Source: Ophiocordyceps camponoti-saundersi (nom. inval.) (taxonomy: Eukaryota > Ascomycota > Sordariomycetes > Hypocreales > Ophiocordycipitaceae). From it: a DNA stretch of 64,000 bases. Of the stretch, positions 14,297 through 50,847 are shown piece by piece; within the stretch, counting starts at the first letter, position 1, and every line of letters starts with the position of its first letter. The stretch lies in NCBI GenBank assembly GCA_003339415.1, contig PDHQ01000047.1, positions 62,001 to 126,000 on the forward strand. The letters are read 5' to 3'. The notes beneath the pieces were generated by a model. The model was not told the origin of the DNA. It made no database searches and was given only the letters and a program-made list of their open reading frames with translations. Position numbers and translations under genes: made by a program.

Positions 14297-14509
14297 CTCC
14301 TTCGTCTCGTGATTCTTTCCATACATACATACGCGTCTGGATATTGAGCCTTTTCTCGCAACAGAGGGGGGGGGGGGGGGCAAAAAAAAAAAAAAAAAAA
14401 AATAAATATAAATGATACGTGTATGTTTATTACAACAAGACGAGGGAAAAGAATGANNNNNNNNNNTTGATGGGGGGGCGGGCGGGGTGGCGTGCGCGGG
14501 GTTGGCGTC

Positions 14510-24952: not shown

Positions 24953-27105
24953 ATGAGACTGTCGTGCGCTTTCGCCGCCTTCACTTGTGCCGCGGCACGC
25001 TCCATCAACCGCGTCCCCCTCTTCGACTATGAGACGAAGCATCTAGAACACACCTGCTTAGAATATGGACGCCTGCTCGCCTTTGACACCGAGGGGCCGA
25101 CGCCGCTCCCGAGAGAATGCAAGCCGGGCCCGGGCGACGCCGGCTGGCCTTCCCGGGTAACATGGGCCGCCTTGAACAGGACACTCGACGGCGCTCTGAT
25201 CCGGACGGTGCCGCTGGCGGCTCCATGCTATAAGAGCTGGGGCGTCTACGATGCTGAAAAGTGTCACTCCGTCACCGTCAACTGGACCAAGCCAGCCTTG
25301 CAGTGAGTGGGCAATCGACGAGAGATCCACCGTAGATAGATAGATACAGGGCCGACTGACGTGGGTAGGCAGCGATTCTGATGCAACTTCCGTCATGTGG
25401 CCGCTCTGGCAGGGCCGCTCATGTCTCCCCACGGGCTCGACATGCACGCTCGGCGCGTATCCGGCCTACGCCGTCAACGCCACCACCGTGAAGCAGATCC
25501 AGCTGGCCGTCAACTTCGCCCGCAACCTCGGGCTACGGATCGTCGTCAAGAACACGGGCCATGACTATCAGGGTAGGTCGTCGGGGGCCGGAGCGCTCAG
25601 CATATGGACGCACAACCTGCAACAGCTGAGGCACATGCCCGACTTCGTCCTCGGCGGCTTTGCCGGCCAGGCCTTGCATGTCGGAGCCGGTGTGCAGACG
25701 CGGGCTATTGCAGAGGCGGCCGAGGAGCACGGCGCCTCCGTCGTTGGGGGAATGTGCGCCGTGAGTTGTGCCTCTCCGTTGCTGACCGTTTTCTTGCCCC
25801 GATATATACTGACGACGAACCCTGCTGCCAAGAGCGTCGGCTATGCTGGCGGATACTTTGCCGGCGGCGGGCACTCGCCCTTGTCTGGCCTGTTCGGTCT
25901 GGCGGCAGACCACGTCCTCGCCATCAACGTCGTGACGCCCGACGGCAGATTCACCACCGCCACCGCCGACAGGAACGCCGACCTCTACTGGGCGCTGCGA
26001 GGTGGCGGCGGAGGAACCTTTGGAGTGACAACGTCTGGTATGTATGAGCAAGAGGACGAGGATCAACCGTGCCCCCTGACTGACGAGGGAGGTTGATGGA
26101 AGTTGTCGTGCGACTACTCCCCAGAGTCCACACCACGACACTGCAGCTTTCCTTCCAGACGTCTGCTGGAGTCGGTGATGAGACCTTCTGGCAGGGCGTG
26201 CGGGCGTACTTTGCCAACTTTGATCGGATGACGCGGGCGGGAATATACGCCTACACCAACCTGCGGCGCAACTCTCCGCTCTTCCAGAACGCTTCGTACA
26301 GCCTGGCCCTTGAGCCCATAGTATGTTCCCACTTCCACGCGGTCACCGTTTCAGATTGCGGTTACTGATTTGATCCTCCTCGACTGGTTGATGTCAGGTG
26401 GCGCCGAACATCTCCATCGAGTCTCTCACTCGAGTCATGGAACCCGTCCTAGACGACCTCACGAAGCTCGGCATCCCCTACAAGTCCAGCGCAAAGCACT
26501 TTACATCCTACAACTCAGCATGGGCTGACGCCTGGCCCCCGGAGCAGGGACAGGTCGCGGAGCCCAACAGCGTCGACGGCAGCCGGCTCTTCCCGCGGGG
26601 CGTGTGGAACGACCCGGCAGGCTTCGAGGCCTCATTCAAAGCCATCCGGGGCGTCGTGGAAGCCGGATACGACATCACGGCCTTTGCCATGGCGCCTCGG
26701 AACCCATTCGGAGCCGACAACGCAGCCAACCCGGCCCTGCGTCACTGCATCGCCTTTTTCACCACGAGCATCCTCCTCCCCTCGAGCCCGACGCCAAAGC
26801 AGCTCGAGGCCGCGCAGAACACGATGCTAAACGACATCCTGTCGTCGTGGAGGCAGGCGGCGCCGTTTGACAAGCTCGGAGGCTCGTACGCCAACGAGGG
26901 CAACGTGGGGGAACCCAACTGGCAGCAGGACTTCTACGGCGACAACTACGGAAGGCTTCTGCGCATCAAGCGGAGATGGGACCCCAGCGGCCTCTTCTAC
27001 GTCCCGGCTGGTGTCGGCAGCGAGGCGTGGGAGGTGCGGACGGAGGGACAGGGTATACAGACGCAGAACGGGCCGCTGTGCCGGCGCCGAACGAGGCATG
27101 GATGA
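24953..27105 (+). CDS. Secreted FAD-linked oxidase with FAD_binding_4 and BBE domains
   Basis: Exons 24953-25302, 25373-25760, 25833-26037, 26103-26320 and 26398-27105 give 622 aa. An N-terminal signal peptide ([15 protein letters not shown]) is followed by a linker, then the PCMH/VAO-type FAD domain. [10 protein letters not shown] supplies the His that usually binds FAD covalently. [20 protein letters not shown] supplies the Cys typical of bicovalent flavinylation. [15 protein letters not shown] also fits. The C-terminus has the berberine-bridge signature [23 protein letters not shown]. Family members oxidise alcohols, sugars or alkaloid-like substrates and are frequent in fungal metabolite clusters. 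The gene is convergent with the phosphatase 175 bp downstream. The exon 1/2 junction has an alternative acceptor 7 bp upstream that would break the frame. Substrate is unknown. Confidence 0.85.
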
Positions 27106-27280
27106 CAGATTGTCATATATAAGCGTTTCTCCATTTCTGCTTGTGGCCAGCCCTGGAGTTTGAGGTATAGAGAATCGTTCTGAATGATAACATCAAGTCC
27201 CAAACTGCGGTGACATGAAGGTGCTGCGTACACATACGTTCTCCATCTTTCACTTACACCATCTAATTGCGCGTTAATTA

Positions 27281-29203
27281 TCATAAATTCGATATGCTCA
27301 CCACCTTGATCCTATCCTCCAGCACCGGGCTCACAACCGGCAGCCCGTCGACGTCATCATGGCGACAGACGATGGTCCTCCGCGCCCTGTGAATGCCCTC
27401 GGTGTGGCCGTCGTCAATCTCATCGACGCTCTTCTTATCCTCTCTGTCTGCCTCGAATATCTCCAGCAGCATGCTCGTGTCAGTTATAGCCTGCTCAGCG
27501 TCGATGAGCGTCCGCGCCGCCTGAAAACAGGTATAGCCATCGAAGCCCGAAGCGATAAAGTCTACCATGGCAACGGCGTACTCGCGGCCGCTCTCTAGGG
27601 GACGGCGCGACCCCCGCGGCGGATGAAAGACTATGTCGCTGACCCTCTGGCCCTCGGGCCGCCTCCAATCCAGCGTCATGCTCAGACCGGAGAGCTGAAG
27701 GAAGCGGCCGTCGGTGTGGGCGTCAGACACGGAGTTCTCCAGCGCCTCGGCCAGCACACGGCCGCTGACGGACTTGACGACGAGGGCGTTGCCAAAGGGG
27801 CTGATGTCGATGACGTCGCGGATGCAAAGCGGGGAGCCGTCGACGATGGCATCGCACCGCACGGCGCCGCTGTTGACCAGCGCCATGTCGGTGTCGTAAA
27901 AGGCGCGCAGGGCGTCGGCAAGCATGTTACCGAGGTTGGTCTCCTGGCTGCGGATGAGGCGACTCCGTCCCTCGAGGGGGACGTCGGTATGCAGGAGAGG
28001 CCGCGTCACCATGGCCTCGATCCTTTTGTGGGTGGCCTGAATGATGTCGAGTATTACAGGGGAGGGTGCTATGTCATTGTAGCCGGGCAGGCGCTCAAGA
28101 TGAGATATTTGCCTGACTGTGTATGCCGGCTGTGTAAGTGACGAGGCCTGAAGCCGGAAAAGGGGGGGGGGGGATGATGATGGCTCTCACCCAACATCTT
28201 GGAGATGATGGCATTTCCATCACCACCCCTTCTTGTAAGGCTTAAGCGGACGAGAGAGAGCCCGTGCCAGTCAGAACCGCTCTTGATAATCCTCGCGTGT
28301 CCCTCAAAGTCAGTCACCGGCGCTCCGCAATCGTCAAAGGCCGACTGCAGCACCTCGGGGTTAGGGTTAGCGTCGGCCGCGTCTCGCCGAAGGACGTGGT
28401 GATCGTGGCCTCCGAGAACAAGGTCGACGCTCTCACTACCGCCGCTAATACCGGCAACGGCGAGGTCCTCGACCAGCCGCATGTGGGTGACGGCAATGAC
28501 CAAGTCGCACTTTTCGACGAGACGTAGATGAGAGGCCACTCTCCTGGCAACGGCACTCGGATCCAAGATGACGCAGTCGGGGAGGTGCTGGCAGTTTGAC
28601 GGCCAGTCGCTGCCGAGTCCATTCAGCACAATATTTATGAAAACATGACAGCTCTCACTCACGTCCCGGCAAGACCAAAGAAACCTATCCTGTACCCTCC
28701 AGCCTCGCGGACGACATACTCTTGCGCCCCGGCAAGGAGACGAGGCCCGTGAGCGGAGCCGACGACATTAGCAAGGGTCCAAGGGAAGCTCGTCTGGCCG
28801 GCCAGCTCGACCAGCCGGGCCTCACCAAAGTCGAAGTCGTGGTTTCCATAGCAGGCGACGTCGATGTTCAGGCCTTGGAGCACCGACGTCATGTGCTCGC
28901 CTCGGAGGACGGCGGCCTCGAGCGAGGGCGAGAAGACATCGCCGCTGAAGACGCGGAGGGTGGGCCGGCGGGAATGTCTTTGGCTGACGAGGCTCGGGTC
29001 TGCGAAGGCTGCGCCGAAGCGGGCTACTAGATTGGCGTTGGACACATGATACTGGGGATGGAGACTGAGGTGAGTGTGTGCTACGAGTAGGGAGGAGTGG
29101 GTGGGTGTGAATGAGTTTGCAGGCGCGAATGGAGAGAGAGAGAGAGGCTGAGACGCACCACGTCGTTGAAGTGCAAGATGGTGATTTCTTGTTCCCTGTC
29201 CAT
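27281..29203 (-). CDS. 5'-nucleotidase-type metallophosphatase
   Basis: Four exons (29203-29159, 29051-28663, 28609-28191, 28116-27281) give 562 aa. Exon 1 is only 45 bp and encodes MDREQEITILHFNDV, the first metal-binding D-x-H region of the UshA/YfkN-like superfamily. Further ligands are visible: FSGDV, YGNHDFDFG, VTHMR and LGGHDHH. The C-terminal 5'-nucleotidase domain starts around QISHLERLPGYNDIAPSP and contains SQETNLGNMLADALR, VNSGAVR and DISPFGNALV. No signal peptide is present, so the enzyme is likely cytosolic. It could hydrolyse nucleotides or sugar/cyclitol phosphates. A role in the neighbouring cluster is inferred from position only. A TTAGGG-like stretch at 28357-28371 lies inside exon 3 and is coding. 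Confidence 0.85.
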
Positions 29204-30098: not shown

Positions 30099-33000
30099 CT
30101 ACAGAGTCTGCCCGCCCTTACTCGCAGTATACAACCCAAAATAGCTGCCCCTAAGCGCCATAAGCTGCGCATGCGTCCCAGCCTCGACAACGCGGCCCTC
30201 ACCCATAACATAGATACGATCCGCCTTGACGATGGTGCTAAGCCGATGGGCGACCGTGACCGTCGTCCGGCCCTGCTTGGCCTTCTCGAGCGCCTGCTGG
30301 ATGCTAGACTCTGACTGCGAGTCCAGCGCCGACGTGGCCTCGTCCAGCAGCAGGATCTTGGGCCGTCGGAGGAGGGCCCGGGCGAGGACGATGCGCTGCT
30401 TCTGGCCGACGCTGAGCTGGCTGCCCCTGCTCCCGACTTGGGTGTCGAAGCCGTCCCTTGAGCGAGTTTGTTAGATGGGATATGACACTCACGGAAAAAA
30501 GAATAGCAGCGAGACTTACGGAAGACTGATGATAAAGTCGTAGATGTTGGCCTCCTGACACGCCTTCTTGATATCTTCGTCCGTAGGCGTCGCGTTCGTC
30601 GCGTTCGTCGTGTCGTCGTCGTCGTCGTCTTCAAGCCCGATGGTCAAGTTCATCTTGAGCGTCCCGCTATACAGGTTCGGCTCCTGGCTCACCAGCCCGA
30701 CGCACTTCCGATAGTCGGCTAAGCGAAGCGACCTGATAGGTTTCGAGTCGACGAGGACCGAACCGCTGCTGGCGTCGTAGAAGCGCTCGATCAGCGAGAT
30801 GATGGTACTCTTCCCGGATCCCGTCGCTCCTACAAAGGCGACGTTGGCGCCGGCCGGGATCGTCAAGCTGACCTTGTCCAGGGCGAGATGGTCCGGTCGC
30901 GAAGGATACGCGAAGCTGACCGAGTCAAACTCGATCAGGCCCTTCAAATCGCCAGGGCTCGTGCCGTCTGAGGACGAAGGGTCGATGGCGGACTTGCGGG
31001 CCAGCAGACGCTGTAGAGACGCCGCCGACTGCTTGGCTTTGGCCATGTTGGGCGTCCAGGAGAAGACCAGGCCGGCCGAGTAGGCGCTGAGCAGCATGGC
31101 GGACTGGACCGCTAGGGCCTGGAAAAGGCTGTACTCGCCGCGGAGGATGAGCCGGCCGCCGTACCAGAAGCTCAATGCCATGCAGGCGTAGTAGGCCGAC
31201 TGCGTCAGCGCGTACATGAAAGAGGCCTGGAGGTTGGAGACCAGGGCTTCCCTCTTGGTGCTGCCCAGTATCGTCTCGAATTCGTCGACCGCCGTCCTCT
31301 CCATGGTCAGAGCGGCGATGGTCTGAATACCGCTCAGCGTCTCGCCCGCGAATCCAGCCGCATCGTTGGCAAACTGCTCGTTCTTCTTCTCGAAGTCGCC
31401 CACGAGCCAGACGCCAAAGTATCCGCCCCCCATCATCAAAGGTATCACCGAGAGGCAGACGAGCGCCAGCTTCCAACCGAGAGCAAGCGAGACGACGATG
31501 CCCGTGATAAGCGTAGAGAGGCAGATGAGAATGATGCCCAACGCGCTGCCACTCAGACCAGTCAGGTCGCCGGCCGAGTTGGATAGAAAGCTGGAAAGAA
31601 CAGCGGCCGAGTTACCCTTTGCGTCGAAGAAGGAAACGTCCATGCTGAGGTAGTGCTGCAGTGCCAGGCTGCGCACTCGGTTGGTGAGGGTCTCCGAGCT
31701 GAAGGAAAAGGCGATGCCCTGGCCGGCGCAGCTGAAGAGCATGACGAAGGCGAGCGCGAAGAACATCCACGAGTAAAAGGCTGCATCTACGCGTATGCTC
31801 TGTGGCTGGGAGATGGCCGTGATGGCTTTGCCGAAGAGGACGGCCGATACGGGCTCTTCGCCGCCTGCGACGATGCAGCAGACGAGTCCTATCAATAGCC
31901 AATGCGTCTCTCCCCAGTTAAGCTTGAAGATGAACTTGGCCAGGGCGAATAGAGACGACGAAACACCGTCCGAGGAGGAGGCGTCCGCGGATAACACGCT
32001 CTCTAGTGCTGCACCTTTTTCTTCCTCTCGAGCAGACTTCTCTTGAGGCATTTCGAGTGAGAGAGATGACGCCTCCTCCATCTCTTGCTCGTCACCCTCT
32101 TCCACCTCCTGGGCCTTGACCAGGTGGTGGTAGGAGGATTGCGCGGCCATCAGATCAGCGTGCTTGCCACTCTCGACGACGCGCCCCGTCTCCAGAACGA
32201 CGATGTTGTCGGCGCTGCGAATCGTCGACAGCCGATGGGCGATCACAATCGTGGCCCGCTGACTGTCTTGCTGGGCCATGCTCGAGAGCAGCTTGGCCTC
32301 CGTCTCGCTGTCCAGTGCAGACGTCGCCTCGTCCAGGATGAGGATCCGCGGCTTCCCCACAAGGGCCCTTGCGATGGCGATCCGTTGAAGCTGTCCGCCC
32401 GAGAGCCTGGAGCCGCGCGTGCCGACGATGGTGTCATATCCCATGGGAAGCTTGCTGATGAAGTCGCTAGCCTGGGCCATCTCGGCGGCCTTGTATACGG
32501 CACTGCGTCGCTCATCGTCCGAGACTTTATCCCACTGCGGTCCGGTGAATCCAACTTGGATGTTGTGATACACCGACTTGTTAAACATGAACGACTCCTG
32601 CTTGACGACTGCGATTTGCTGTCGAAGCCAGCCGAGTTGATAGTCAGCCAGGTCCTTGCCGTCAAGCAGAATCCGGCCGTCTAGAGGATCGTAGAAGCGA
32701 AGGAGTAAATTCGATATCGAACTCTTGCCTGAGCCGGAATGGCCGACTATGGCCGTGGTCCTCCCCATGGGAAACTCGATGGTGACGTCGTCTAAGACGG
32801 TAACGTTTGGGCGACAAGGGTAGACGTGCTTCACGTTACGCAGCTCCATGGTGCTGTTGAACTGAGCCGGAGCGCATCCGTCTTTGGACGCCGAGTCGAT
32901 GGGCGACACTCGTCGAATCATGCGGGTAAGACGGCGAGCCCCCGAAACGGCCGCGGCAAAGGCTTCCATGTTGGAGCCGACGCCCAAGACGCAGAAGGCG

Positions 33001-34049
33001 GCCGACTTGGTCACCATGGAGATGGCCACGACGGCCGTAAACGACGTCTTGCCCTCGACGAGGCGACGCGACCCTTGCCAAAACGCCAAGGCAACGTTCA
33101 GGTAGCCACTCGCGACGCAGATGGCGATCAGCGTAGAGCTGAGGGAGCTCAGGATGAATCCGTTCTTGGCGGCCTTGCGCAAGAAGCTCATGTACCTGTT
33201 ATGGATGTGGCGCTGTATGCCGAGCGACGTGGTCGTCTTGATGGAGCCCAGAGCCTCCTCGACAAGAGCGGAACCGGTCGAGGAGGCCTCTATGCTGCGA
33301 CTGCTATATCGGACCGTCAACTTGCCGCCGAGATAGAGGACGACGTAGCCGAGGGCGAGAGACCAGATCAGCTCAAACATGAGGATCCAGTCGAGGGCAA
33401 AGCACACGACGACAGTAGCAACGAGGGTGCCGAGGGCGCTGATAGTCTGCGACAGCTTGGAAGAGATGGCGCTCTGTATCGCCTTTGCGTCGTCGGTGAG
33501 GTGCGAGAGCATATCGCCCGCGCCCTTGTCGTCGAAGACGGCCATGTTCTGCCTAAGGAGGGCGGCGAAATAGCGCATCTTGATGGTGCGCGTGATCCTC
33601 GCTCCCGTGTAATTGAAGCCTGCGGTCGAGACGAACCACGTCACCAGGGCGACGACGAGGATGTAGACATAATAGACGGTGAATTGGTTCAGGAGCGGTT
33701 CAACCTGTCTGCCCTCCGTCTCGGCCCTGGAGAAGGCGAGGATGATGCGCGAGCTGATGACCTGGGAGGACCGTCAACCCGGAACAGATGCACTCAGGGG
33801 GGAGGGAAGACGAAGAAATCGTACGGGAGTGACGGGGACCAGGGCGCCGGCGATGACGGCGCAGACGGCACTGACGGCGACGAGAGCCAGGTCGAGCCAG
33901 GTGGCGTACCTGTAGATGCCGAGGAAGGACAGGTCGACGGCATCGATGCGAAGCTGCTCCTTCAGCAAGGCCTGCTCGGTGGCCGTCGTCGACGGGCCAT
34001 CTGTTGCGGCAGCTTTGGCTTTCTCGTCGGGCGGCGAGAGGGCTTTCAT
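30099..34049 (-). CDS. ABC-B (multidrug-resistance type) full transporter 1
   Basis: Three exons (34049-33825, 33761-30520, 30456-30099) give 1274 aa, normal for a fungal P-glycoprotein-like exporter with TMD-NBD-TMD-NBD order. NBD1 has Walker [10 protein letters not shown], signature RLSGGQLQR and Walker [18 protein letters not shown]2 has Walker [10 protein letters not shown], a variant signature LSVGQKQR and [13 protein letters not shown]. The N-terminus up to the first helix (around [17 protein letters not shown]) is cytosolic. I chose [10 protein letters not shown] because upstream in-frame codons are simple Leu/Ser repeats. The start faces the YCII gene at 34981. Both intron positions are the same as in ABC transporter 2. 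Such pumps export hydrophobic metabolites and often confer self-protection next to NRPS genes. Confidence 0.9.
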
Positions 34050-34977
34050 GGCAGCGGCCCAGGCCAGTAGAGTCGGAGGAGCAGTCCTGTCCGACGATGA
34101 TGATGATGACGACGACGACGTTGACGATGACGACGACGGCAACAACAACAACAACAACAACAACTTGACGAGGTTCTACCCCTCGACCGCGTTGGAAAGA
34201 TGGCTGGCTGGCTGCGAAAACACGTGGGATTGGAAACCCCGTCAACTCCTCCGGGTCGAGTGCCAACCAGGGAGTCAGATGGGGAAACAATCCCGCCTGG
34301 CTTGTTGCATGGGTCCCGTTTTCGGCGATTGGATGGCTTGTTGGTGTGAACGTGCGTTTCCAGGTAACGGTAACACGGCAGGGGTGCCGAGGATGATGGA
34401 TGGAGAGCCGTCTGTTGGACCGGACCAACACGATTCAATCCAATCCGGTAGGCGGTTAATCCTTCCGATTCGTCGCCCAACAAGTCGATGATCTTTTGAC
34501 ATCTATCCGTCCTACTCCTCCGCATGTATGTGCTTATCCATCGTCAATGCCATGGAGTCTGTAAAGGTCGGATGTCATCCGAGCGTGGGCAGACGGATGG
34601 TGGCGGCTGACTATCATTCGTACATGCATCAACAACATCAGAGGCACACGCCAGTCAGCTTATCACACCTAGTCCTACCTACATATGCATATCTGCATCC
34701 GTATACTTATACATATGCATATCTGCTAAGGGGGTGAGTTTAGTATGCATCCAGTCATCCCTCCTCGCCGGCTGGTCTGTCACATCCTGATCTCTCTCTT
34801 CTTCGGCTCTCTAAACACATGTAGAAAACACCGAGCCACCTACCTAACCCTGCTAACCCTAACCTACTACCGAGCCAGACATCATCTTACAGGAATCTTA
34901 CATATGTATGTAACCAGGTCGACTCGCTCCCGGATCGCCCTCTCCGTAGCATCAATCTTTGACATCAGACAGCTTCC
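34050..34977. promoter_or_regulatory. Divergent spacer between ABC transporter 1 and the YCII gene
   Basis: The 930-bp region separates two divergently read genes. It begins with (GAT/GAC)n and (AAC)n runs (34097-34163) that lie in the ABC leader. It also contains ATATGCATATC words at 34683-34725 and the telomere-like CCCTAA stretch at 34839-34866. No further gene is seen. Individual promoter elements could not be assigned. Confidence 0.4.
34839..34866 (-). repeat. Interstitial telomere-like CCCTAA repeat
   Basis: The sequence CTAACCCTGCTAACCCTAACC is three imperfect CCCTAA units, reversed relative to the TTAGGG stretch at 29661-29692. The pair brackets ABC transporter 1. Confidence 0.55.
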
Positions 34978-34980
34978 ATG

Positions 34981-35519
34981 ATGAGCCCCCTTTCGTCTCG
35001 TCCCTTTGCGCTGCCCAGGATCCTAGCACTGGCACAGCAGCAGCTTCGCTCCGCCTCCTCGGGCAGCAGCAGGACACGCCGGTCTGAATAGTATGTACGG
35101 TCCTCAGACATGGTCACGACCACTTGGCACCAGACATGATGGGCCTTACATCTCGACTCGTAGCTTCGTCAACGTCTGGGACAGGCCGGGCGTCGACCGA
35201 AGCGCCATTGCCGGCGCGTCAGGCATCCCCGAGTCCTTTCGTTTCGTGGGAGAGATGCTCGACGAGAAGACGCTCGACGTCCGCGGCAACTGTCTCGCAT
35301 GCGTCTGCGGCTCCAAGGAAGAGGTGATGCGTCTGCTACGTCTCACGCCGCACTTTCAGCAGGTGTGTAGTTTTATCGGTCCATCTACCCAAGTTGGAGA
35401 TTTGTTGGATTAATGTACTGTCAAAGGGAGTCTGGGACATGTCGACGGCCAAGATAAGCGCACTGGAAACTGTCCATACCAGCAATCTGATAACCCACGA
35501 TGAGAAGATGAAGCCCTGA
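34981..35519 (+). CDS. YCII-domain protein, possibly mitochondrial; 5' structure uncertain
   Basis: Best model: exons 34981-35081, 35134-35362 and 35427-35519, 140 aa. Exon 1 encodes an Arg/Ser/Ala-rich presequence-like stretch (FALPRILALAQQQLRSASSG). Exons 2-3 give FVNVWDRPGV, FRFVGEMLDEKTLDVRGN, CVCGSKEEVMRLL and GVWDMSTAKI, which follow the YCII pattern (DKPG, G-ML, SKEEV, VWD). The second intron is clean (GTGTGT...CAAAG, phase 0). The first is a problem. The better donor, GTATGT at 35091, would create an in-frame TAA codon, so the model uses a weak GTCTGA at 35082. The gene may therefore be damaged at its 5' end. An in-frame ATG also lies at 34978. YCII proteins are small ferredoxin-like folds, some of them lyases or dehalogenases. 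Confidence 0.55.
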
Positions 35520-35634
35520 ATATGCACTGAACTTGCTTCGTAAGGCTGGTTAAAGTCAAGAAAGCAGAATATAAGCAAAGATATATACGGCTAGAGTGTA
35601 GTCCATAAGGCATACATATCAACATCAATATCAA

Positions 35635-39500: not shown

Positions 39501-40569
39501 TGGTAGCTACAACGCTTATAAAGGGCGTTATACCGTCTATAAGCCGCCTCGAGCCCTGCCAGAAGCCTATCGCCACATTGATATAGCCGCTAGCAGCACA
39601 GAGACTTATCATGGACGAGTTCAACGTCTTGAGAATAAAGCCGTCCTTGGACGCCCTCTGGAGGTGATCCATATAAGCCTTGTGCACGCCTCTCTGCAGT
39701 CCGAGCGCCGCCGTGCTCTTGACGTCCCCGAGGGCTTCGTCAACGACGGCAGCGGCGTCTGAGGAGGCGTCCAGCGATCGGGTGCTGAAGCGCGCCGTCG
39801 CCTTGCCACTGAGGACCAGCACCAGAGTGCCGACGACCAAAGACCACGAGAGAATACAGGCCAGCGTCCAGTCCAAGGCGAAGCACACGGCCATGGTCCC
39901 CGTCAAGTTGCCAACGGCCGCGATGCTGACGGCGAGCTTCGACGATAGGGCGTCCTGTATCGTGTTGGTCGTGAGGTGGGACAGGATATCTCGGGTGCCG
40001 TCGCCATCAAAGACGGCCATGTTCTGCCTCAGAACGGCAGCAAAGTACTGCGTCTTGATCCGGCCAACGATCCGGCCGGCCGCGTGAGTGAAGCCGCAGG
40101 TAGCAATGGTCCATGAGGCTAAAGACAGGAAGAAGATGTAAACATAGTAGAGCGTGAACTGGTTGATGGACCCAGACAGGGCATCACCCTCTGTCCGGGC
40201 TCTGGCCAGGAACTCGAGCAGGTATGCATTGACAATCTGTGCAGGCCCATCAGCGAACCTGGGGGACGATGGAGAGGCCGGCATGTGACCACCTACCGGC
40301 GCCGTGGGATGCAACGCGCCGGCGACGATGGCGGCGACGGCACTGACAGCAACCAGCACCAGTTCCGAAAGCGTCGCATGCCTGTAGAGGCCGACGAAAG
40401 ACGCCTTGACGGTGTCTCGCAGCAGCAGCTGTTGGTCCAAGATGTGCTTTTCTGCCGGAGCAATCTTTGGCTCGAGTTTTCCGTCGACGTCTTTGTTGTC
40501 TGAGACGGCCGAGGTTGTTTTCGAACATGCTGCTTGGTTCGTATGATGGTTCGTTTGAGAGCCACCCAT
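36585..40569 (-). CDS. ABC-B (multidrug-resistance type) full transporter 2
   Basis: Three exons (40569-40297, 40236-37010, 36954-36585) give 1289 aa. The first intron (60 bp, GTAGGT...CACAG) is a multiple of three and open, so it could be read through. It is taken as spliced because the paralogue has an intron at the same site (after ALxPxxP). NBD1 shows [18 protein letters not shown] and [17 protein letters not shown]2 shows [18 protein letters not shown] and [13 protein letters not shown]. The N-terminus ([28 protein letters not shown]) aligns with transporter 1 ([28 protein letters not shown]). The two are clearly duplicates but well diverged. The gene starts back-to-back with the NRPS gene, with a 1-kb shared upstream region, which favours a role in exporting its product. 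Confidence 0.9.
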
Positions 40570-41589
40570 GGCGACGACTGCGAGACCTGGAGACGATCAA
40601 CAAGCACCGGATAGCGATGGCTTAGAAAGAAAGAGATGGCTACAGGAGTTGAAGATGCTCGCAGTGATGAGCCTGAAAGCGAATCTACCTCCTCTACCGG
40701 ACTTTGAGATGAGAGACCAAGAGTTGCTCTGCATACCTACGTGCATACATCCATATCCGTACATCCATATGCATTTGCCTCTTCATGAATAACACAAATA
40801 TACTATCCGTGTATGTATGTATGTATGTATGTGCATCTCGAATGCATCTCCCCAGTCATCCGCTCGCACTCCCCCTGTGTATTTAGCGACCGACACGCGA
40901 TTGTCAGCATCGTGAGATTTCATCTACATACACGGGCGCCACTGCTTTCTGAGTCGGCGAAGAGACGCTGACTTACATACATAACTAGGAAGGGTGGTTC
41001 GATCTGTTGCTGCCGGGCCACGCGGTTCCCGGTAAGGATCCGAAACAATGATACGGCTCGGTTGGACAGAGCCGGCTCATCATCCAAAGATGCAGCCAAC
41101 GGACCAGCTATGTATGTCAGCCTGCCTGAATACCAGGGGGAGAGGGGGGGTATGTATATACGGATAGAATAGGTGGCAGCTTACTTTCCATGTTCCAATG
41201 ATCAGCATGGTGGTTATACTCACATGCAGTTCCACGCGTCTGTATCCGCAGATTGCTCCGTTGTTACATACCGCCTATGTGTCACCACGTCGCGGCCACA
41301 CTCGACGTGATGGCTGCTTTCTTGTGTGCAACTGTGACTGGAGACTCCAAAACGAAACGCCAAGAGAGAGATCGCCCGGTGTAGTGACAGTAGGTATATG
41401 CAGGTGTCCGTGTAAGCGGACCTCGTCGACGACGTCGTCATCTAGGTAGGCCACTGCAAGTAATACGATAAGAGATCAGCGGGAAAAGGCAGCACAGAGA
41501 GAGAGAGAGACAGAGACAGAGAGAGAGCCAATTTCATCTTCAGTAACAACAACTATTTTCATCCCTTGGCCTTGCTCATCTCCCTGGCC
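40570..41589. promoter_or_regulatory. Shared divergent upstream region of ABC transporter 2 and the NRPS
   Basis: The 1.0-kb region separates two divergently transcribed cluster genes and so should contain both promoters. Visible features are (GTAT)n at 40814-40832, TATCCGTA/TACGGATA at about 40756 and 41159, and a (GA)n run at 41498-41526 close to the NRPS start. No pathway-specific binding site can be named from sequence alone. Confidence 0.45.
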
Positions 41590-44500
41590 ATGGCAGCATC
41601 CCCATCCGAGACGAGTCCGCCATGGCAGAGCTGGGACAGCTGTTGCATCTTGAGCGCCAAGGAGGATGGCTCAATCAAGCGGGAATCTGTCTTGCTTCCA
41701 GACGCATTCAACAAGGATTCCATCACCTCATTCTGCCGGGACCGTCAGGTTTCCGAGGCTGCCGTGGTCAAGTTGGCCTGGTGCATTGCCGTGGGCGCCT
41801 ACGCCGGCGTCCAGCATGTCTGCGTGGGCATCAGGGCAGAGGGCGGCCAGGGATTACTACGTTGTCGATTAGATCCGCAACAAACGGCTGCTCATCATCT
41901 CGTTTCCTCGTTGGAGGAGGTTGCCTTGGGTGCCGACGAGCTGGTTGACGCCGTCTCCAGCGGGCTACTGGACACGATACTGGATATTCGGCGCCGCGGC
42001 TCTCAAACGAGCAGTGTAAGCTGGACTGTTTTTTCCTGACCGAGTATCGCCCTTGGCTGACACGAGAATATGGCCAGAAGCTGTCCAGCTCGAGCCATGT
42101 CGTCGAGGCCGAGGTAGATTTAGACAAGGGATCCGTCGCCATCCGCTATCCCTTCAACACAGTCAACGGCGCCTCATGGGGCATGCGAGCGGCCAGGCTG
42201 CTGTCGACGAGCATCACCGACATCGTGAAGCATGCCGACGAGCGTCTGACCGACCTGGACCTGCTTCCGACTGCCGATGCTGCCGAGGTGGAGGAATGGA
42301 ACGGCAAAGACCTGGGCACATACGACGCCTGTCTACACCAAGTCATTCATCAACGGGCCGAGGAGACGCCCGACGACGTGGCCGTGTGCGCCTGGGACGG
42401 GGACTTGACATACCGCGAGCTGGACCGTCTCTCGTCGCACGTTGCTTGGAGGCTGCACCGCCTCGGCGTCGACAGGGGTGCTGTTGTTGCCTTCTTGTTC
42501 CGCAAGTCTAGGTGGACGATTGTGTCGATGCTGGGCATCATGAAGACAGGCGGCGCTGCCGTTGCGCTCAACGCCGATTTCCCGGTCGAATGGTCCAAGC
42601 ATGTGGTACAGTCTACGAGAGCCGGCGTGCTTGTTGTCGGCCGGGGCTTGGAGGAGGTGCTTGATCTGTCGACGGAGGGAATCGTCACAATGATCGTGGA
42701 CGAGGCTTCATTCCCCGACAGAGACGCACCTGATGGCTTCACTTCGTCGACAGTCAGGCCGGACGACGTGGCCTACATCCAGTTCACGTCCGGAAGCACC
42801 GGCCGGCCCAAGGGCATCATGCTGGAGCATAGGACATACTTGGCCAGCGCAATGTCGCAACTGGAGTCGTGCCACGTCGGAAAGCAATCGAGAGTTCTCC
42901 AATTTGCCAGCCACAGCTTCGACGCCATCCTCGTCGAGGTGATAACTCCGCTGCTGGCCGGCGGCTGCGTCTGCGTCCCTTCAGATGAGCGGCGGACAGA
43001 CGACCTCTCAGGGGTTATAAGGGACTACCGGGTGAACTGGATGGGGCTGACGCCGACGCTGGCGAGGGTCATCAAGCCCGAAGACGTTCCTGGTCTGCGG
43101 ACGCTGTGCTCATGGGGCGAGGCGGCCACGAGCGACATGATCGAGGCTTGGGCCGACGCCGTCGAGCTCATCAACATCTACGGCCCGTCCGAGAACTCGG
43201 TCGAGTCGACATGGCATTCGTGGTCGACCGGCGTCCGAGACGCGTCTCATCTGGGCAAGACCATGAGGGCCGTCAATGCCTGGATCGTCCGCATCGACAA
43301 CAGGGATAAGCTCGCGCCGATAGGAGCCGTCGGCGAGCTGGCTCTTCAGGGGCCGACCGTGGCCAGGGGCTACCTTGACGACGATGACGACAGCAGTACC
43401 ACCTCGTCCTTCAGCCACTTCGTGCCGTGGCTGCCGCCAGGAGCCAGGAACCAGCGCATCTACTACTCGGGCGATCTCGTCCGCTATACTGACGACGGAG
43501 AGCTAGACTTCTGCGGCCGTCGTGACACGCAGGTCAAGATCAGGGGTCACCGCATCGAGCTCGGCGAGATAGAGCATCACATCAACCGGAACCTGCCCCT
43601 CGCAGCATCAACGTCAATCGTGGAGGTGATCCGTCCCGTCCATCGCCCGACGCAGAAGATACTCGTTGCCTTCATCGGCGAGAAGCGCGATGCTGCGTGT
43701 TCGACCGGGCCCCTATTCCAGCCGCCTTCCACCGCCTCCAGGGATAAGGCGGTCGTGATAGAGAAGCGACTGTCGCAATGCCTGCCGCCGCACTCGGTTC
43801 CGTCGCTATACCTGCCTCTCGGATATCTTCCCACCACCGCCTCGGGTAAAGCAGATCGGCGGAGACTGAGGACGGTGGCTGAGTCGCTCCCAGAGCCGGA
43901 ACTGCTGAGCTACTCGTCTCAGGCAAGGGAACGACGAAAGCCGCAGACGGAGACGGAGACGCGGCTGGCCGACCTCTGGGCCGATATCCTAGGCGTAGAC
44001 GTCCGGAACGTCGGCCTTGATGACAGCTTCTTCTGGCTCGGGGGGGATTCAATTCTCGCCATGAAGCTCGCCGTAACGGCCCGCGGACAGGGGATGCAGC
44101 TCACCGTCGCCCAGGTTCTCAACAACCCGCGGCTGGGGCAGCTCTCGACCGTCGTCTCGACGGGCGTCTTCAAGCATGACGATGCTCAAGGCTGCGTGTA
44201 TATGCCCTTCTCCTCTCTCCCCAGAGACGTGGAAGCGGGCGACTTCGTGTCGAGCGTCGTAGCGCCGCGACTGGGCGTCGAGGCCTCTGATATACAGGAC
44301 GCGGCCCTGGCAACCGACTACCAGATCGAGAACCTTGCGTGGTCGTCGCTGAAGACACGCGGAGGAACAAACTACATCACGTTTGAATTCTCCGACGCTG
44401 GCCTTGACGCCGCTCGACTGCAGACGGCCATTGAGAGGCTCATCTCGCATCACGCCATCCTCCGCACCGTCTATCTCGTCCACCAACGACGCGTCTATCA

Positions 44501-45875
44501 AGTTACTCTCCGAACGCTACCGATCGAGTTCATCCATTGCCTGTACACGAGAGATGTGGCAAAGACCACCTCCGAACTGGTCGACACCGATTCTCGTCAG
44601 CCTGTTGACATTACTCGGGCCCTCATCAAGTTCTGGCTCGTCCGAGACGACGCCGGCCCTGGTCGGGTAAAATGCCTCGTTCTCCGCGCCTCGCACTTAC
44701 AATACGACGGCGTCAGTCTCATCCGGCTATGCAAGGAACTCGGCCTGGCCCTGACCGGCCTGGATCTGCCCCCGACGACATCGTACTTCGGCTACATGCA
44801 TTTCGCGGCCAACCACGACGAGCAGGGAGCCCGCGACTTCTGGCGCAAGACCCTGGCAGGATCTCGCATGACAAACGTCTTCAACCACACGAGCATCCCC
44901 TGGAGACACGTCTTGGACGGACAGGTCGAGACCGTCGTCGATACCGCCGTCGTCCGTTCCAACTCGGACACGACCATCGGCACGACTATCAAGGCGGCCT
45001 GGGCTCTAGTTATGGCGGAAATGTCCGGCAATGACGACATCGTCTTCGGCTCCGTCGTCTGGGGCCGTAACGCCATGTATCCCGGCGTCGAGCAGGTAAC
45101 GGGAGCGTGCATAGACAACATACCCGTACGCGTACGTCTCGGGCCCGGCATGACGCTCCGAGAGCTCCTGGGACAGGTTCAGAGACAATACTTCGAGGCC
45201 GTCAGCTTCGAGAGCTTCCGGTACAAGCGCATCGTTGAAGAGTGCACCGAATGGCGGCCGTGGGAGCGGCTGAGCACATTGGTCGAGTACGAGAACCTTG
45301 GAGAGGAGACTTCGAGCTTCCAGCTGGATCAGGAGACGGACTTTACCGTCAAGGAGATCAGACCGCCGGCTGATCGTCACGATATCACCATCTTCAGCAC
45401 TCCGCTGGGCGCGGAACAGACTTTCATCGCCCTCGACTTCTGCGAGGCCGTCGTTCCAAAGTCAATGGCACAGGGCATGCTAGACCGCCTGGTACATCAC
45501 ATACGAGAGTTTCACGACAACATCGACAAGCCCGTGCAAGACGCCATGACTCGTGACACGGGGCTTCCTCGTATCCCCATGGAATTGGCTGCCGTCAATG
45601 GCTGTCACTACGTTGCTGACGGGCTGGTCAAGCCGCACTTCAGACAGATGGTTGAGAGAGCCTGGGTCAGCGTCCTCGAGTCTCGACACGAGGATCTTGG
45701 CGCGTACTGGACGGATAGGGTTCCGTTCTACGAGGTCTGGGGGAATCTCATCGCATCGTATGGCCTTGCAAGGTGCTACGCTGACGAGGGAATCGTCGTC
45801 AGCATGGAGGATGTCTTGGAAAACGCAGATATGCAGTCTCAAGCGGGATTGCTGCAGAACAGGGGGGATCAGTAG
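41590..45875 (+). CDS. Nonribosomal peptide synthetase, (partial C)-A-T-C
   Basis: Two exons, 41590-42015 and 42078-45875, give 1407 aa. The 62-bp intron has GTAAGC, a CTGAC branch motif and GCCAG, and joins two frames in phase. Residues 1-220 resemble only the C-terminal half of a condensation domain (VVKLAWCIAVGAYAGVQHVCVG) and lack its active-site motif. The adenylation domain follows with TSGSTGRPKG (about 379), NIYGPSENS, YYSGDLVRY, GRRDTQVKIRGHRIELGEIE and TASGKADRR. The thiolation domain has LGGDSI with Ser at about 800. The final condensation domain has HHAILRTVY and SHLQYDG (catalytic His at about 1015), as in chain-releasing or amide-forming terminal C domains. Specificity residues read by eye start D-A-V-G; the substrate cannot be predicted. 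No thioesterase or reductase is present. Confidence 0.88.
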
Positions 45876-46665: not shown

Positions 46666-47224
46666 ATGGAGGCAAAAGGCAAGAAATCACCCCTAAAGGT
46701 CGCCATCATCGGGATAGGCCACCGAGGCTATAACACGCACTTCCTCTCTCTGCTCGAGAACTCTCGAGCATGGATCGTCGTGTCCGTCTGCGACACAGAG
46801 CAAGAAGCCCGTCTCCGCTTCTCCAGCAAGCATCCGGACATCAACACATACGGAAGCCTGGACAACTTGCTGAACAAGCACAAGGCCGAGTTGGACTTTG
46901 CCATTGTATGCGTGCCGCACCAGTTCCATTATGAGTGCTGCGAGAAGCTGGCTCGTGCCGGCGTTCCCATCTTGAAGGAGAAGCCGGTGGCCGAGTCGAC
47001 GGAGGAGTATCAACGACTCCTCAGGCTGCCCGTCAAGATGGGCGTCACCTTTCAGAAGCGCTTCGAGCCGCGCTATCTCGCTGTACGCGACCTCTTGCCT
47101 CAGGTCGGTCAAGTTGCGTCCTTTACGGCGACGCTGAGCGCGAGCATCGTCGCTCTGGACGCCACGTGGAGAGCGAGAAGCGATGTCGGAGTTACGGTAA
47201 GCGGTGTTCTTTCCTTCGAATGAT

Positions 47225-47277
<53 letters not shown>

Positions 47278-49309
47278 CGCCCCGCCCCCCCCCCCCCCCC
47301 GCACGCANNNNNNNNNNCTTTGTTCTTTGGCCTCCTCTTGGGGGGGGGAAAGTCGGTTTCGGTTTTTGGGTAGTGGGTGTTTTTTCCTTCCAGGGTCCCC
47401 CCCCCCCCCCCCCCCCCCCGCCTGGGGATTCATCCATCTGATGACGATCCGTTGCTCTTTTCCCTCGGCTCTCTATATAGGAAGACCTGGGCTGCCACAT
47501 GCTGGACATGATCGTCTCTCTCTTCGGCAGACCGACTCTGGTTACCGCCCAGAGTGCCAAGGGGATCAGGGTCGAGCAGGCGTACGGGGGAGACGACACC
47601 TGCGACGTCATCATGAAGTTCGGACAGGGTTCAAGGCCCAGCATCATGGGCCACGTCCATCTCTCGCGCGTGGCCCATCGAGAGGAAGAGTCTCTGGTCA
47701 TGACCGGCACAAAGGGCACCTTCGCCCTGGAGGGCAGAGACGTCCGACTACGGGACAGCGCCGGGAACGAGACGTTTCACCTCCATGACACCTCGGCAAA
47801 GAGGTATGTCGTCTGTTCGATGCTTCACAAGTTCTCGGGTTGGATCACCGGCGCAGAGCCAGACTTTCCTGCCTCACTAGCCAATCTCCGGGAAACAGTT
47901 AGCCTCATGGAAACCATCCGCCGGTCCTACGGCAAGCCCCGGCTCGAGGCCTCACTGCATGGCGCGCACCATGTATGGCCGCTGCTCGGGCCCGAGTCAG
48001 AAGAGGCCGTCGTGCGCCAGATGCACTCTTCGCTGTCCATCTACAACCGGTCCGACGTGTACGAGACGTTCGAGGACCGGTGGTGTAAGATGCACGGCCT
48101 CAAGCATGCGCTGGTCTGCAGCTCTGGCACCGTCGCCATCCTCCACATGTTTGAGGCCCTCGATCTGCGGCCGGGGGATCAGGTTCTGTGCCCGGTATAT
48201 ACCTTCTTCGCCACGGCCTCTCCGCTGCTTCAGTATGGGGCCGTCCCCGTCTTCTGCGACGCCCTGGAGGACGGAAACCTGGACCCGGCCGAGGTTGCGA
48301 AGCGGACGACGGCCAAGACGAGGGCCGTCATCGTCACTCACATGTGGGGGTTGCCTTGTCGCATGCGAGAGATTGTAGACAAGGCCCGAGAGGTCGGCAT
48401 CAAGGTCCTCGAAGACTGCTCTCACGCTCACGGCGCCGTCGTAGAGGACAGGGTGGTGGGATCCTGGGGAGACATGGCCGCCTGGTCTCTGCAGGCCAAG
48501 AAGAACATCATGGGCGGGCAGGCGGGCGTCATGGCGACCAACTCGACCGACTACTATTCTCGCGCCATCCTCCACGGCCACTTCAACAAGCGGGCCAAGC
48601 AGGAAGTGCCGGGCAACCATCCCCTGCGGAAGTTCTGGCGTCAGTCCTCCGTCGCTCCTCTGTTATGCTCAAACTTTATTCCCCTGGAAGGCAGGCTAAC
48701 ACGTCCAGTCTCGCAGTCACCGGCCTCGGCCTTAACTTACGTGCCCATCCGCTGGCCATCGCCTTGGCAAACCAGCAGCTAGATCTCGCCCCGTCCCACG
48801 ACGCCCACAGACAAGCCTACGCCGCCTACGTGGAGAGCCGGCTCGGGGTGATCCCCTTCCTCAAGATGCCATCAGTGCGCGACAGGAAGCACGACAAGCA
48901 CGCATGGTACGCCTTCGTCATGCAATTCGACCCATCCAAGGCGCCGGCCGGCCTTACGCGCGACGACTTTGTCCGGAAGCTCGTCGAGGATCACGGGCTC
49001 CAAGAGGTAGACATACCCCGGTCGACGGGGCTGTTGAACGAACTACCGCTATTTACGCACTCGCACGAGGCCGTTCCGAGATTCGGGGACCGGCCGTGGT
49101 GCGAGATGCAGCCAACTTCCGAGTTCCCCAGGGCACAAGGCTTTTATAAGGCCGCCATCAAGTTGCCCATGTGGGCGACGGAAGGCGACAGACCCATCGT
49201 GGAGCATTACGTTAACAAGTTCTTGCTGGTTGCCCGGGAGGTTCTCGTGGATTCGTCGAGAGTGGGTGAGAGGAGTCGCGACAGCGGACTTGCACAAGCC
49301 AGGTTATAG
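46666..49309 (+). CDS. Bifunctional Gfo/Idh/MocA dehydrogenase - DegT/DnrJ/EryC1 aminotransferase
   Basis: Exons 46666-47196, 47481-48639 and 48717-49309 give 760 aa. Residues 1 to about 335 are a Gfo/Idh/MocA oxidoreductase: NAD(P)-binding VAIIGIGHRGYNTH, the EKPVAES motif, and the D-x3-H active-site block DLGCHMLD right after intron 1. Residues from about 341 are a PLP-dependent DegT-family sugar aminotransferase: SSGTVAI, EDCSHAHGA (Asp about 489 for the pyridine nitrogen) and WSLQAKKN with the Schiff-base Lys at about 518. In bacteria these activities are separate partners, for example StrI with StsC, RifL with RifK, or NtdC with NtdA. Together they oxidise a sugar or cyclitol hydroxyl and aminate the ketone. 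Intron 1 is unusually long (284 bp) because it contains poly-C runs and an N gap. Confidence 0.87.
47226..47420. repeat. Poly-C tracts flanking a 10-N gap inside an intron
   Basis: C runs of about 50, 20 and 20 bases (47226-47276, 47281-47300, 47398-47419) surround ten Ns at 47308-47317. Homopolymers of this size next to a fixed-length gap suggest an assembly or sequencing artefact. The flanking splice sites (GTAAGC at 47197, TATAG before 47481) are intact, so the coding model is not affected. Confidence 0.75.
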
Positions 49310-50079
49310 TTAGACGGGTTATATCCGTACATAAACGTACAGTTCTACATACATACATACATGTGTATATCCTCCTTTAAGCTGAAGGTTAATCGAGTTG
49401 AGGCTAAAAAGGGGGGAGAAGATCTGAGGAATATCCTTTCTTCACGTCAACTCATCGCCACTGTTGCATCCATGGTCCGAATGACACGATCCTCCTACCT
49501 AGAGAGCACTTTTGCATCTTGGCCAACGGCGAATCCAGAGTAGACTCCCGTTCGTCGGTCATCCGGCCGAGGGTTGATGACTCGGCCCTCTGCTTCTATG
49601 GGAAGTAGTCCGAGCATCGCCTGCGGGTAGGACTTACAGAGACAAGCATTGCATGAAACATTCGAGATCCAGGGGTGTTACTGCAACAGGCACACCCCGT
49701 GCCCTTGCTGTTCCCCGACGCACGGTATAAGCGGTTGGTGATCAATGCATTCTCGACTGTAGCATCACCCCAATGGAGAGGCTTGGCGCGGTGCAACTCG
49801 AACCCGGCCGCGGAACAGAACCCATCGAGAGCTTACATGTAGGCAGGCAGTCAGCTTAGATGCATCGAGCCCGGATCGTATTCATGATGATCCCGCATAT
49901 ATGTGTGGGTATGTCATGTAGTAGTAGGTGGTGGACGGACGGCAGTGGCCCGACGTCTTCCCTACCTACTGAAGCCCAACTTGTAGAAGCAAGGGCCTAT
50001 AAAGATACGCGCTTCGACTTCAAACAAGGCACAGCTCGATAGAAGAATAGCATACATCATAACCCCCCCCCCTTCAACC
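49310..50079. other. Intergenic spacer upstream of the methyltransferase
   Basis: This 770-bp region contains TATCCGTA at about 49321, a CATACATACATA run just after it, and a C-rich stretch (50062-50071) immediately 5' of the methyltransferase start. No gene is recognised. Confidence 0.45.
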
Positions 50080-50847
50080 ATGGCTAGCTTCACCCAAGTA
50101 AAGGACGACTACGACACCCAAGCCCAAGGGTACAATGAAGCCTCCCACCTGCCCTGCGGCATTCTCCAGAGGGAGCTCCTAGAGGTGGCACTGGGCGACT
50201 GCACGGGCCTAAGCGTCCTCGACTTCGGCGGCGGCTCCGGCCTCCACGCTCGCCAAGCCGTCGACGCCGGAGCCGCCGCCGTGGACATAATCGACCTCTC
50301 GCCCGGCATGCTACGGATTGCCGAAGAGACGGAGAAGCAGCTCGGCCGAGTCGGGAAGATCCGCTGCTTCGAGGCCGACGCCACCCAACCGCTCGACCAC
50401 CTGGGCCTACGAGACCAGTACGACGTCGTCATGTGCAACTTTTGCTTCGATCACGCGACGACGAGGGAGCAGCTCGAGGCCATGTGGCGCAACGTCACCT
50501 CTCTCCTCAAGCCGGCCGGCCGCTTCGTCGGCGCCAGGGTAGGCAACATGAAGAGCAAGGCCTGCGCCGACGGCAAGTACGGCGTCAGCTACAAGGACTT
50601 CCAGGACATACCCGGCGGCGTCCGATACCGCTACCGCGTCCACCTCAAGGAACCCGTCGAGTTCGAGGCCTGCTCCCTGGCTCTCAGCTATTCCGGAGAC
50701 ACCGAGATGCATAGAAAGTATGGCCTCGTCGATATCCAGGAGGTGCCCCTGACGAGCTCCAAGGCAGTTCGAGACGACCCTGGCTTCTGGAAGTTACTTG
50801 TCGATGACCCGAGCATTGCTGTCGTTACGGCGAGAAAGGCGTCTTGA
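50080..50847 (+). CDS. SAM-dependent class I methyltransferase
   Basis: A single exon encodes 255 aa. The Rossmann-type SAM site is clear: motif I VLDFGGGSGLHARQAVDAG, the acidic position after beta-2 (DIIDLSPGML), the motif II region IRCFEADATQP, and motif IV YDVVMCNFCFDH. The N-terminus (DDYDTQAQGYNEASHLP) resembles the cap of small-molecule methyltransferases. No targeting signal is visible. The ATG at 50080 sits in CAACCATGGCTAGC, a good fungal start context. It is the last recognisable gene of the putative cluster on this side and reads in the same direction as the NRPS and fusion genes. O- or N-methylation of the cluster product is a reasonable inference; the substrate is unknown. Confidence 0.85.
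   Translation: MASFTQVKDDYDTQAQGYNEASHLPCGILQRELLEVALGDCTGLSVLDFGGGSGLHARQAVDAGAAAVDIIDLSPGMLRIAEETEKQLGRVGKIRCFEADATQPLDHLGLRDQYDVVMCNFCFDHATTREQLEAMWRNVTSLLKPAGRFVGARVGNMKSKACADGKYGVSYKDFQDIPGGVRYRYRVHLKEPVEFEACSLALSYSGDTEMHRKYGLVDIQEVPLTSSKAVRDDPGFWKLLVDDPSIAVVTARKAS

Follow-up and report, generated by a model that had tools for sequence, protein, structure and literature searches.

A gene cluster at positions 24953..50847 of a 64,000-nucleotide stretch of the Ophiocordyceps camponoti-saundersi genome (contig PDHQ01000047.1, positions 62,001 to 126,000; the whole stretch is referred to as the window) probably directs the synthesis of puromycin-like peptidyl-aminonucleosides. The probability of this reading, which is drawn from sequence comparisons, is put at about 0.7. 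The cluster is built around three genes, encoding a 5'-nucleotidase-like phosphatase, a nonribosomal peptide synthetase (NRPS) and a fusion of a Gfo/Idh dehydrogenase with a DegT aminotransferase. The gene content, the recurrent linkage of these genes, their family relations and the conserved positions of the fusion are established; the substrate, product, localisation and activity are proposals. The spliced models of all three genes are open throughout, with GT-AG introns:

27281..29203, minus strand: 5'-nucleotidase-like phosphatase (5_nucleotid_C, 1e-34; 4 exons; 562 amino acids)
41590..45875, plus strand: NRPS (exons 41590-42015 and 42078-45875; 1407 amino acids)
46666..49309, plus strand: Gfo/Idh-DegT fusion (exons 46666-47196, 47481-48639 and 48717-49309; 760 amino acids)
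47197..47480, plus strand: intron 1 of the fusion gene, with poly-C runs and an assembly gap (N) at 47308-47317

In the proposed pathway, the Gfo/Idh half of the fusion would oxidise C3' of a purine nucleotide, AMP or ATP being likelier than GMP or GTP, and the DegT half would aminate the 3'-ketone in a pyridoxal phosphate-dependent reaction. The 5'-nucleotidase would strip the phosphate(s) from the 3'-amino nucleotide, replacing the NUDIX protein and the monophosphatase of bacteria. The NRPS would activate one amino acid, and its condensation domain would join it to the free 3'-amine to form an aminoacyl-3'-amino-3'-deoxynucleoside. The product would be of the homocitrullyl-aminoadenosine or chryscandin type and, like puromycin, would mimic the 3' end of tRNA. 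Export by the ABC pumps of the cluster is a guess.

The substrate assignment comes from the DegT half and from gene context. Pfam finds the N and C parts of Gfo/Idh in the fusion, followed by DegT (5.2e-48). The Pur4 and Pur10 references are proteins of a Streptomyces locus, L114, typed as puromycin-like by its gene content: Gfo/Idh, an 858-residue open reading frame (ORF) that matches no Pfam family, DegT, IMPase and an acetyltransferase that scores 280 bits against the solved puromycin N-acetyltransferase 7k09. Content and order suit a puromycin-type cluster, given what we take to be the pur gene order. The DegT half aligns with the Pur4-like protein of L114 at 194.6 bits (33% over 418 amino acids), and no solved chain listed scores the fusion as high; the best, 8gyh (Fic25), reaches 145.6 bits. 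Scores of 259-380 bits are obtained with five bacterial DegT proteins, from Pantoea, Dactylosporangium, Nocardia, Symploca and Saccharibacteria; Gfo/Idh lies next to four of them and NUDIX next to three. The structure model of a fusion relative (P0002; pLDDT 82.8, pTM 0.56) has the DegT fold, and its fold search returns Fic25 first, with NtdA and KabA at rank 48-50; model and search are not decisive as to substrate. An 8-row alignment of fungal and other fusions shows no variation at the Gfo EKP lysine (K106), at D179/H183 or at the DegT lysine (K518), all presumably catalytic.

The bacterial relatives of the DegT half lie in characteristic operons. A genome scan returned 371 relatives, and the best 80 loci were analysed, 79 of them with a recognised DegT (L033 is without). 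Gfo/Idh lies within 3 kb of DegT in 56 of the 79, NUDIX in 57 and both in 43; in 52 loci NUDIX either follows DegT immediately downstream on its strand or shares its ORF. IMPase and a thymidylate-kinase-like gene are each found within 5 kb in 8/79. Further than 5 kb from DegT, over 576 kb scanned, there were one NUDIX, two IMPase, no kinase and no Gfo. Two proteins, P0033 and P0036, have Gfo-DegT fused with NUDIX. Among Streptomyces, 153 of 392 genomes match the DegT exon at E 1e-25, a cut-off that admits many kinds of DegT; in the 20 loci returned, Gfo/Idh is beside DegT in 12 and NUDIX in 10.

One operon of this type has a known product. The papers cited here by PMC number are drawn on in excerpt. 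Genes adgB-E of Photorhabdus luminescens are homologs of pur10, pur4, pur7 and pur3, and their expression in E. coli yields 3'-amino-3'-deoxyguanosine (ADG) (PMC9239236). The Pantoea locus L116 has the same order, Gfo, DegT, NUDIX, IMPase, the comparison being one of gene order and not of sequence. The published 25-base Photorhabdus adgB primer stretch, with up to 3 mismatches allowed, was found in none of 394 genomes, and a search with the Pantoea DegT within its order hit 2/394 genomes at E 1e-60, one being the source of the query.

Several bacterial loci are recorded here as side observations. Ca. Pantoea carbekii has an adg-like set on its 6.3-kb plasmid pBMSBPS2, in the order Gfo, DegT, NUDIX, IMPase (L063:2351-5840), and the same four genes occur in L028 and L065, from symbionts of Plautia stali and of Euschistus servus. 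Gfo/Idh-DegT-NUDIX sets occur in Patescibacteria, Saccharibacteria, Nocardia and others, and DegT-NUDIX in Clostridia (L003-L082); these sets, eight of them with a thymidylate-kinase-like gene close by, are candidate aminonucleotide pathways. Three actinobacterial loci apparently represent another nucleoside pathway: L044:6597-21527 has Gfo/Idh, DegT, radical SAM, tetrapyrrole-methylase-like and A-T proteins, a class III aminotransferase and IMPase; L060 has Gfo/Idh and DegT beside a class III aminotransferase and an NRPS-like gene; and L061 has them beside a pyrimidine-nucleoside phosphorylase and IMPase. A reading of the bacterial operons as defence systems was considered and set aside; PADLOC gives scores of 60 bits (NUDIX protein; PDC-S07), 40, 37 and 20 bits (thymidylate-kinase-like protein; VakA, PDC-M51B and PifA) and 18-19 bits (a DegT; SspA and DndA).

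The operons also bear on the best surviving alternative, which is unlikely. It holds that the fusion makes a UDP-3-amino sugar, that the nucleotidase is a UshA-like UDP-sugar hydrolase and that the NRPS acylates an amino-sugar phosphate. Many of the solved DegT enzymes listed work on nucleotide sugars, some relatives of the nucleotidase are named UDP-sugar diphosphatase or hydrolase, and the Gfo half scores 65 bits against the NCBIfam model for UDP-GlcNAc 3-dehydrogenase, whose cut-off is 450. Against this, nucleotides are suggested by the expressed adg operon and by the IMPase and thymidylate-kinase-like genes near DegT in some bacterial loci, and neither a glycosyltransferase nor a sugar nucleotidyltransferase was found among the subset of window ORFs scanned.

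The fusion itself recurs in fungi. The protein search gave 199 matches in all, and the figures rest on the 120 listed. The first 29 (P0001-P0029) have 51-77% identity across 48-100% of the query. Of these, 25 are named after fungi, and in 23 of the 25 both Gfo/Idh and DegT are present; the other four are metagenome proteins. The next two, P0030-P0031, are shorter pieces. A scaffolding artefact was considered and rejected as unlikely, because the gap is within an intron, the Gfo/Idh halves fit together and two-domain fusions are present in the 23 fungal-named proteins. The whole fusion gene is found once in the 45.7-Mb assembly. A 74-codon stretch elsewhere in it (G000:C711:436921-437142, minus strand), with 52% identity to fusion residues 691-763, is a possible relic of a second copy, and a third contig has a Gfo part matching at 32%. 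In Aspergillus, Fusarium and others (P0072-P0104, P0116), a related Gfo domain is paired with an aldo-keto reductase domain.

In the tree the 17 fungal rows come together as a single clade (SH-aLRT 100), whose partner is the cyanobacterium Symploca (support 85, a long branch); the tree was made by a quick method, midpoint-rooted, and carries a long-branch warning. The set of 37 rows in which this grouping lies also holds bacterial DegT, 9 with a NUDIX neighbour and 8 with none. Next to the Symploca DegT is an ORF in which IMPase and NUDIX are fused.

The C-terminus of the fusion is ARL, similar to a peroxisomal targeting signal 1 (PTS1). A C-terminal [SACP][KR]L is present in 24 of the first 29 fusion matches (21 by the strict pattern [SAC][KRH][LM]). 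Among the matches listed, it is found in 0/84 further ones of the fusion search, 0/120 for the NRPS and 3/120 for the nucleotidase. The nucleotidase (exons 29159-29203, 28663-29051, 28191-28609 and 27281-28116) ends in SNL, and 13 of the 24 nucleotidases nearest to it end in SNL, ANL or PNL, which we take to be a PTS1-like variant. By eye, its N-terminus, MDREQEITILHFNDVYHV, has no visible signal peptide. From these C-terminal tripeptides of fusion and nucleotidase, the first steps, including 3'-amination, may be peroxisomal. The nucleotidase search gave 827 matches, of which 120 are listed and used. The solved chains nearest to the ortholog P0241 are 5'-nucleotidases (2z1a at 132 bits, CD73 at about 75, UshA at about 51).

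The NRPS has the order N-terminal stretch, adenylation (A), thiolation (T), condensation (C), degenerate T. Pfam supports AMP-binding (2.7e-66), PP-binding (1.1e-14) and Condensation (9e-31); the N-terminal stretch has no Pfam match and by eye looks like the end of a C domain. In the terminal T, also by eye, GGDS is replaced and FYEVWGNL stands instead, so that the serine is gone. The WGN is retained in 21/22 aligned rows, the exception being a distant 2373-residue protein; the alignment omitted P0140, a 937-residue piece. The C domain keeps the motif SHLQYDG in the window NRPS and in P0121-P0139. With A, T and C domains and linked genes, the locus has what defines a fungal NRPS cluster, the serine of the terminal T being absent. 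An architecture with one A domain and a C domain after it would suit the handing of one amino acid to a free amine.

Linkage of the three genes in other fungi was seen in the locus tags. The closest named relatives among the matches listed include Ophiocordyceps australis (identity 77% for the fusion, 64% for the NRPS and 71% for the nucleotidase), in which the nucleotidase is CDD81_1760, the fusion CDD81_1764 and the NRPS CDD81_1765. Fusion and nucleotidase are HIM_02894 and HIM_02895 in Hirsutella, and FQN54_005111 and FQN54_005113 in Arachnomyces. NRPS and nucleotidase are H112_00033 and H112_00035 in Trichophyton rubrum; in Talaromyces UA08_00560 (1031 residues, 64% over 39% of the NRPS) is followed by the nucleotidase UA08_00561. 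Claussenomyces has the NRPS M1818_005594 next to the fusion M1818_005595. In a second test, two matches were sought on (longest) contigs of exactly equal size. Twelve of the 29 fusion matches share a contig size with one of the 120 listed nucleotidase matches. Five share one with the first 20 NRPS matches and none with the other 100 listed; NRPS and fusion are paired in this way in Epichloe, Neoarthrinium and one metagenome contig. Cordyceps militaris has matches to all three, the NRPS on a contig of another size. The claim of the initial annotation that NRPS and fusion belong to one metabolite cluster is supported.

In seven of the 12 fusion-nucleotidase pairs no NRPS ortholog is listed: Leucogyrophana, Hygrophoropsis, Botryobasidium, Purpureocillium, Myriangium, Annulohypoxylon and Apiospora. 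Because such pairs are found in basidiomycetes and some ascomycetes, we read the core as fusion plus nucleotidase with an optional NRPS, rather than as no cluster. Synteny in species lacking the NRPS had been named beforehand as evidence against a cluster; it is present in part, in these pairs. They also favour the idea that the core yields a free 3'-amino nucleoside and that the NRPS makes something unrelated to it, the linkage being due to chance or shared regulation. This is still less likely than the nucleotide-sugar pathway, given the consecutive NRPS and fusion tags in Ophiocordyceps and Claussenomyces and the equal-sized contigs in Epichloe, Neoarthrinium and the metagenome; an NRPS with one A domain and a late C domain would also fit a free amine acceptor.

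The NtdABC and KabABC kanosamine pathways combine Gfo/Idh, DegT and phosphatase. The initial annotation had suggested a route of the kanosamine or aminocyclitol kind. On that view the substrate of dehydrogenase and aminotransferase would be glucose-6-phosphate or inositol, and the amino sugar, once released by the phosphatase, would be aminoacylated by the NRPS. The fold families shared with NtdC/NtdA and BtrR and an NCBIfam inositol 2-dehydrogenase match on the Gfo half (66 bits, cut-off 355) speak for it, but it is the least probable of the alternatives and was rejected, since the DegT half is far more distant from NtdA (60 bits, behind more than 35 other DegT chains among the solved ones listed, and only 48th in the P0002 fold search), the 2-deoxy-scyllo-inosose aminotransferase BtrR (105) and AHBA synthase (89) than from the Pur4-like (195) and operon proteins, the phosphatase is of the 5'-nucleotidase family, the bacterial neighbours are often NUDIX and sometimes thymidylate-kinase-like, and the NtdABC/KabABC substrate is a hexose phosphate. 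The broader claim of an aminoacylated amino sugar is not far off, provided that the sugar in question is a nucleoside's ribose.

Several observations weigh against the aminonucleoside reading. The Gfo half is uninformative on substrate; it scores 61 bits with the L114 Pur10-like protein, as with 3hnp (61.5) and inositol dehydrogenase (59.8), so that the case for C3' oxidation of a nucleotide is made by the DegT half and the neighbouring genes. The closest of the five scored bacterial DegT, that of Saccharibacteria (L008), has no NUDIX neighbour; 22 of the 79 bacterial loci have no NUDIX within 3 kb; and none is present among the ORFs kept at L114. The bacterial loci are not independent, many being from Nocardia, and the DegT/Gfo/NUDIX sets could use nucleotide sugars. 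Some equal contig sizes could be matched by chance, since some contigs are megabases long, those of 25.8, 87 and 257 kb less easily. The nucleotidases of the seven fungi without a listed NRPS have 43-47% identity to that of the window and no SNL-type ending. The A-domain codes, taken from the alignment at the presumed code positions, are DAVGCWIVEK in the window and DADGCWVGTK in the ortholog from C. militaris, while T. rubrum and M. canis share DATGAWLVGK. The amino acid loaded therefore probably varies between lineages, and the Cordyceps products are not directly transferable. Finally, NUDIX, IMPase, Pur6-like and PAC proteins, in their L114 or operon versions, had no match at E 0.01 in the 946 six-frame window ORFs of at least 40 amino acids, which is why the nucleotidase is proposed to do the dephosphorylation alone.

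None of these four proteins turned up in the search of the window, which places the cluster outside the pur family. Up to the aminonucleoside it would nevertheless work like the puromycin and ADG pathways. Like the fungal cluster as proposed, the ADG operon leads to a 3'-amino-3'-deoxy purine nucleoside, there by a Pur10-like dehydrogenase and a Pur4-like aminotransferase, with phosphate removal in the pathway; it differs in being bacterial, with separate genes, a NUDIX and a monophosphatase, and no NRPS in the operon as excerpted (PMC9239236). The puromycin (pur), cystocin and A201A clusters likewise have a dehydrogenase, an aminotransferase, dephosphorylation and an amino acid on the 3'-amine, but they use a Pur6-type synthetase, the Pur7 NUDIX, the Pur3 monophosphatase and PAC, whereas the fungus has an NRPS and a 5'-nucleotidase (PMC11641026). 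According to the excerpt, Pur6 is without a known domain and an adenylation domain was not detected in puromycin-like clusters (PMC11641026). The cns1-4 cluster of C. militaris is also a purine nucleoside analogue cluster from a related group of fungi. It differs in having four genes that lead to 3'-deoxyadenosine and pentostatin, with no DegT or NRPS named in the excerpt (PMC12648386). The dermatophyte NRPS loci excerpted from PMC3408471 (VLB with porphyrin genes, VLC with other genes) showed no match to the cluster. A literature search on fungal aminonucleoside clusters, largely at title level and with thin coverage of subscription journals, found nothing on this gene set.

The remaining genes are candidate members, which may or may not belong to the cluster:

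24953..27105, plus strand: FAD-linked oxidase of the BBE/6-hydroxynicotine type (FAD_binding_4, 9e-16; BBE, 1.5e-13)
30099..34060, ends approximate, minus strand: ABC transporter 1, paired membrane and ATPase domains
34978..35519, plus strand: small YCII-like protein 1 (intron-containing model with 3 exons; no Pfam match)
35635..36092, minus strand: small YCII-like protein 2 (spliced model; PF03795 at E 0.053 only, below cut-off)
36585..40596, ends approximate, minus strand: ABC transporter 2, paired membrane and ATPase domains
50080..50847, plus strand: class I S-adenosylmethionine (SAM) methyltransferase (Pfam match, 1.7e-15)

The nine-gene set described in the initial annotation is present between 24953 and 50847, the YCII pair being the weaker members. 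By eye, the oxidase seems to begin with a signal peptide. Housekeeping genes matched among the scanned ORFs of the flanks are a SNF2 helicase, G6PD and MED14. Beside the cluster, at 51500-56500, lies an AT-rich block (37% GC) with a strong signature of repeat-induced point mutation (TpA/ApT 1.49; (CpA+TpG)/(ApC+GpT) 0.17). A second assembly gap of 10 N is at 14457-14466.

Products of the proposed type are reported from other fungi. Cordyceps militaris makes lysyl- and homocitrullyl-aminoadenosine, and chryscandin, from Chrysosporium pannorum (now Pseudogymnoascus pannorum), carries aminoadenosine. Pseudogymnoascus has relatives of the NRPS (P0139, 49%) and of the nucleotidase (P0254, 57%); no Pseudogymnoascus protein is among the fusion matches listed. 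Chryscandin is called a peptidyl nucleoside antibiotic in a cited title (PMC6924690). The metabolome table of Cordyceps nidus includes 3'-amino-3'-deoxyadenosine and 3'-homocitrullyl-amino-3'-deoxyadenosine (PMC5479552). A 2025 review, as excerpted, places 3'-amino-3'-deoxyadenosine among the purine nucleosides without an identified gene cluster (PMC12648386). The cluster may be the missing gene basis of the aminonucleosides from Cordyceps-type fungi, and its three central genes are named here as candidates for 3'-amino-3'-deoxyadenosine.

A wider proposal, for and against which the odds are even, is that fungi evolved their own puromycin-class pathway. A bacterial 3'-amination pair would have been acquired in one horizontal transfer, fused and sent to peroxisomes, with a 5'-nucleotidase taking the place of NUDIX and monophosphatase, an NRPS that of Pur6, and an amino acid that differs from lineage to lineage (Ophiocordyceps, Cordyceps, dermatophytes, Pseudogymnoascus). 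This pathway would be the gene basis of 3'-amino-3'-deoxyadenosine, its lysyl and homocitrullyl derivatives and chryscandin. If the aminonucleoside reading is right, the bacterial Gfo-DegT-NUDIX operons, which are widespread and occur in insect symbionts and Patescibacteria among others, would be candidate 3'-aminonucleotide pathways, and fungi and bacteria would have arrived at one class of ribosome mimics through different coupling reactions, the former by an NRPS and the latter by Pur6.

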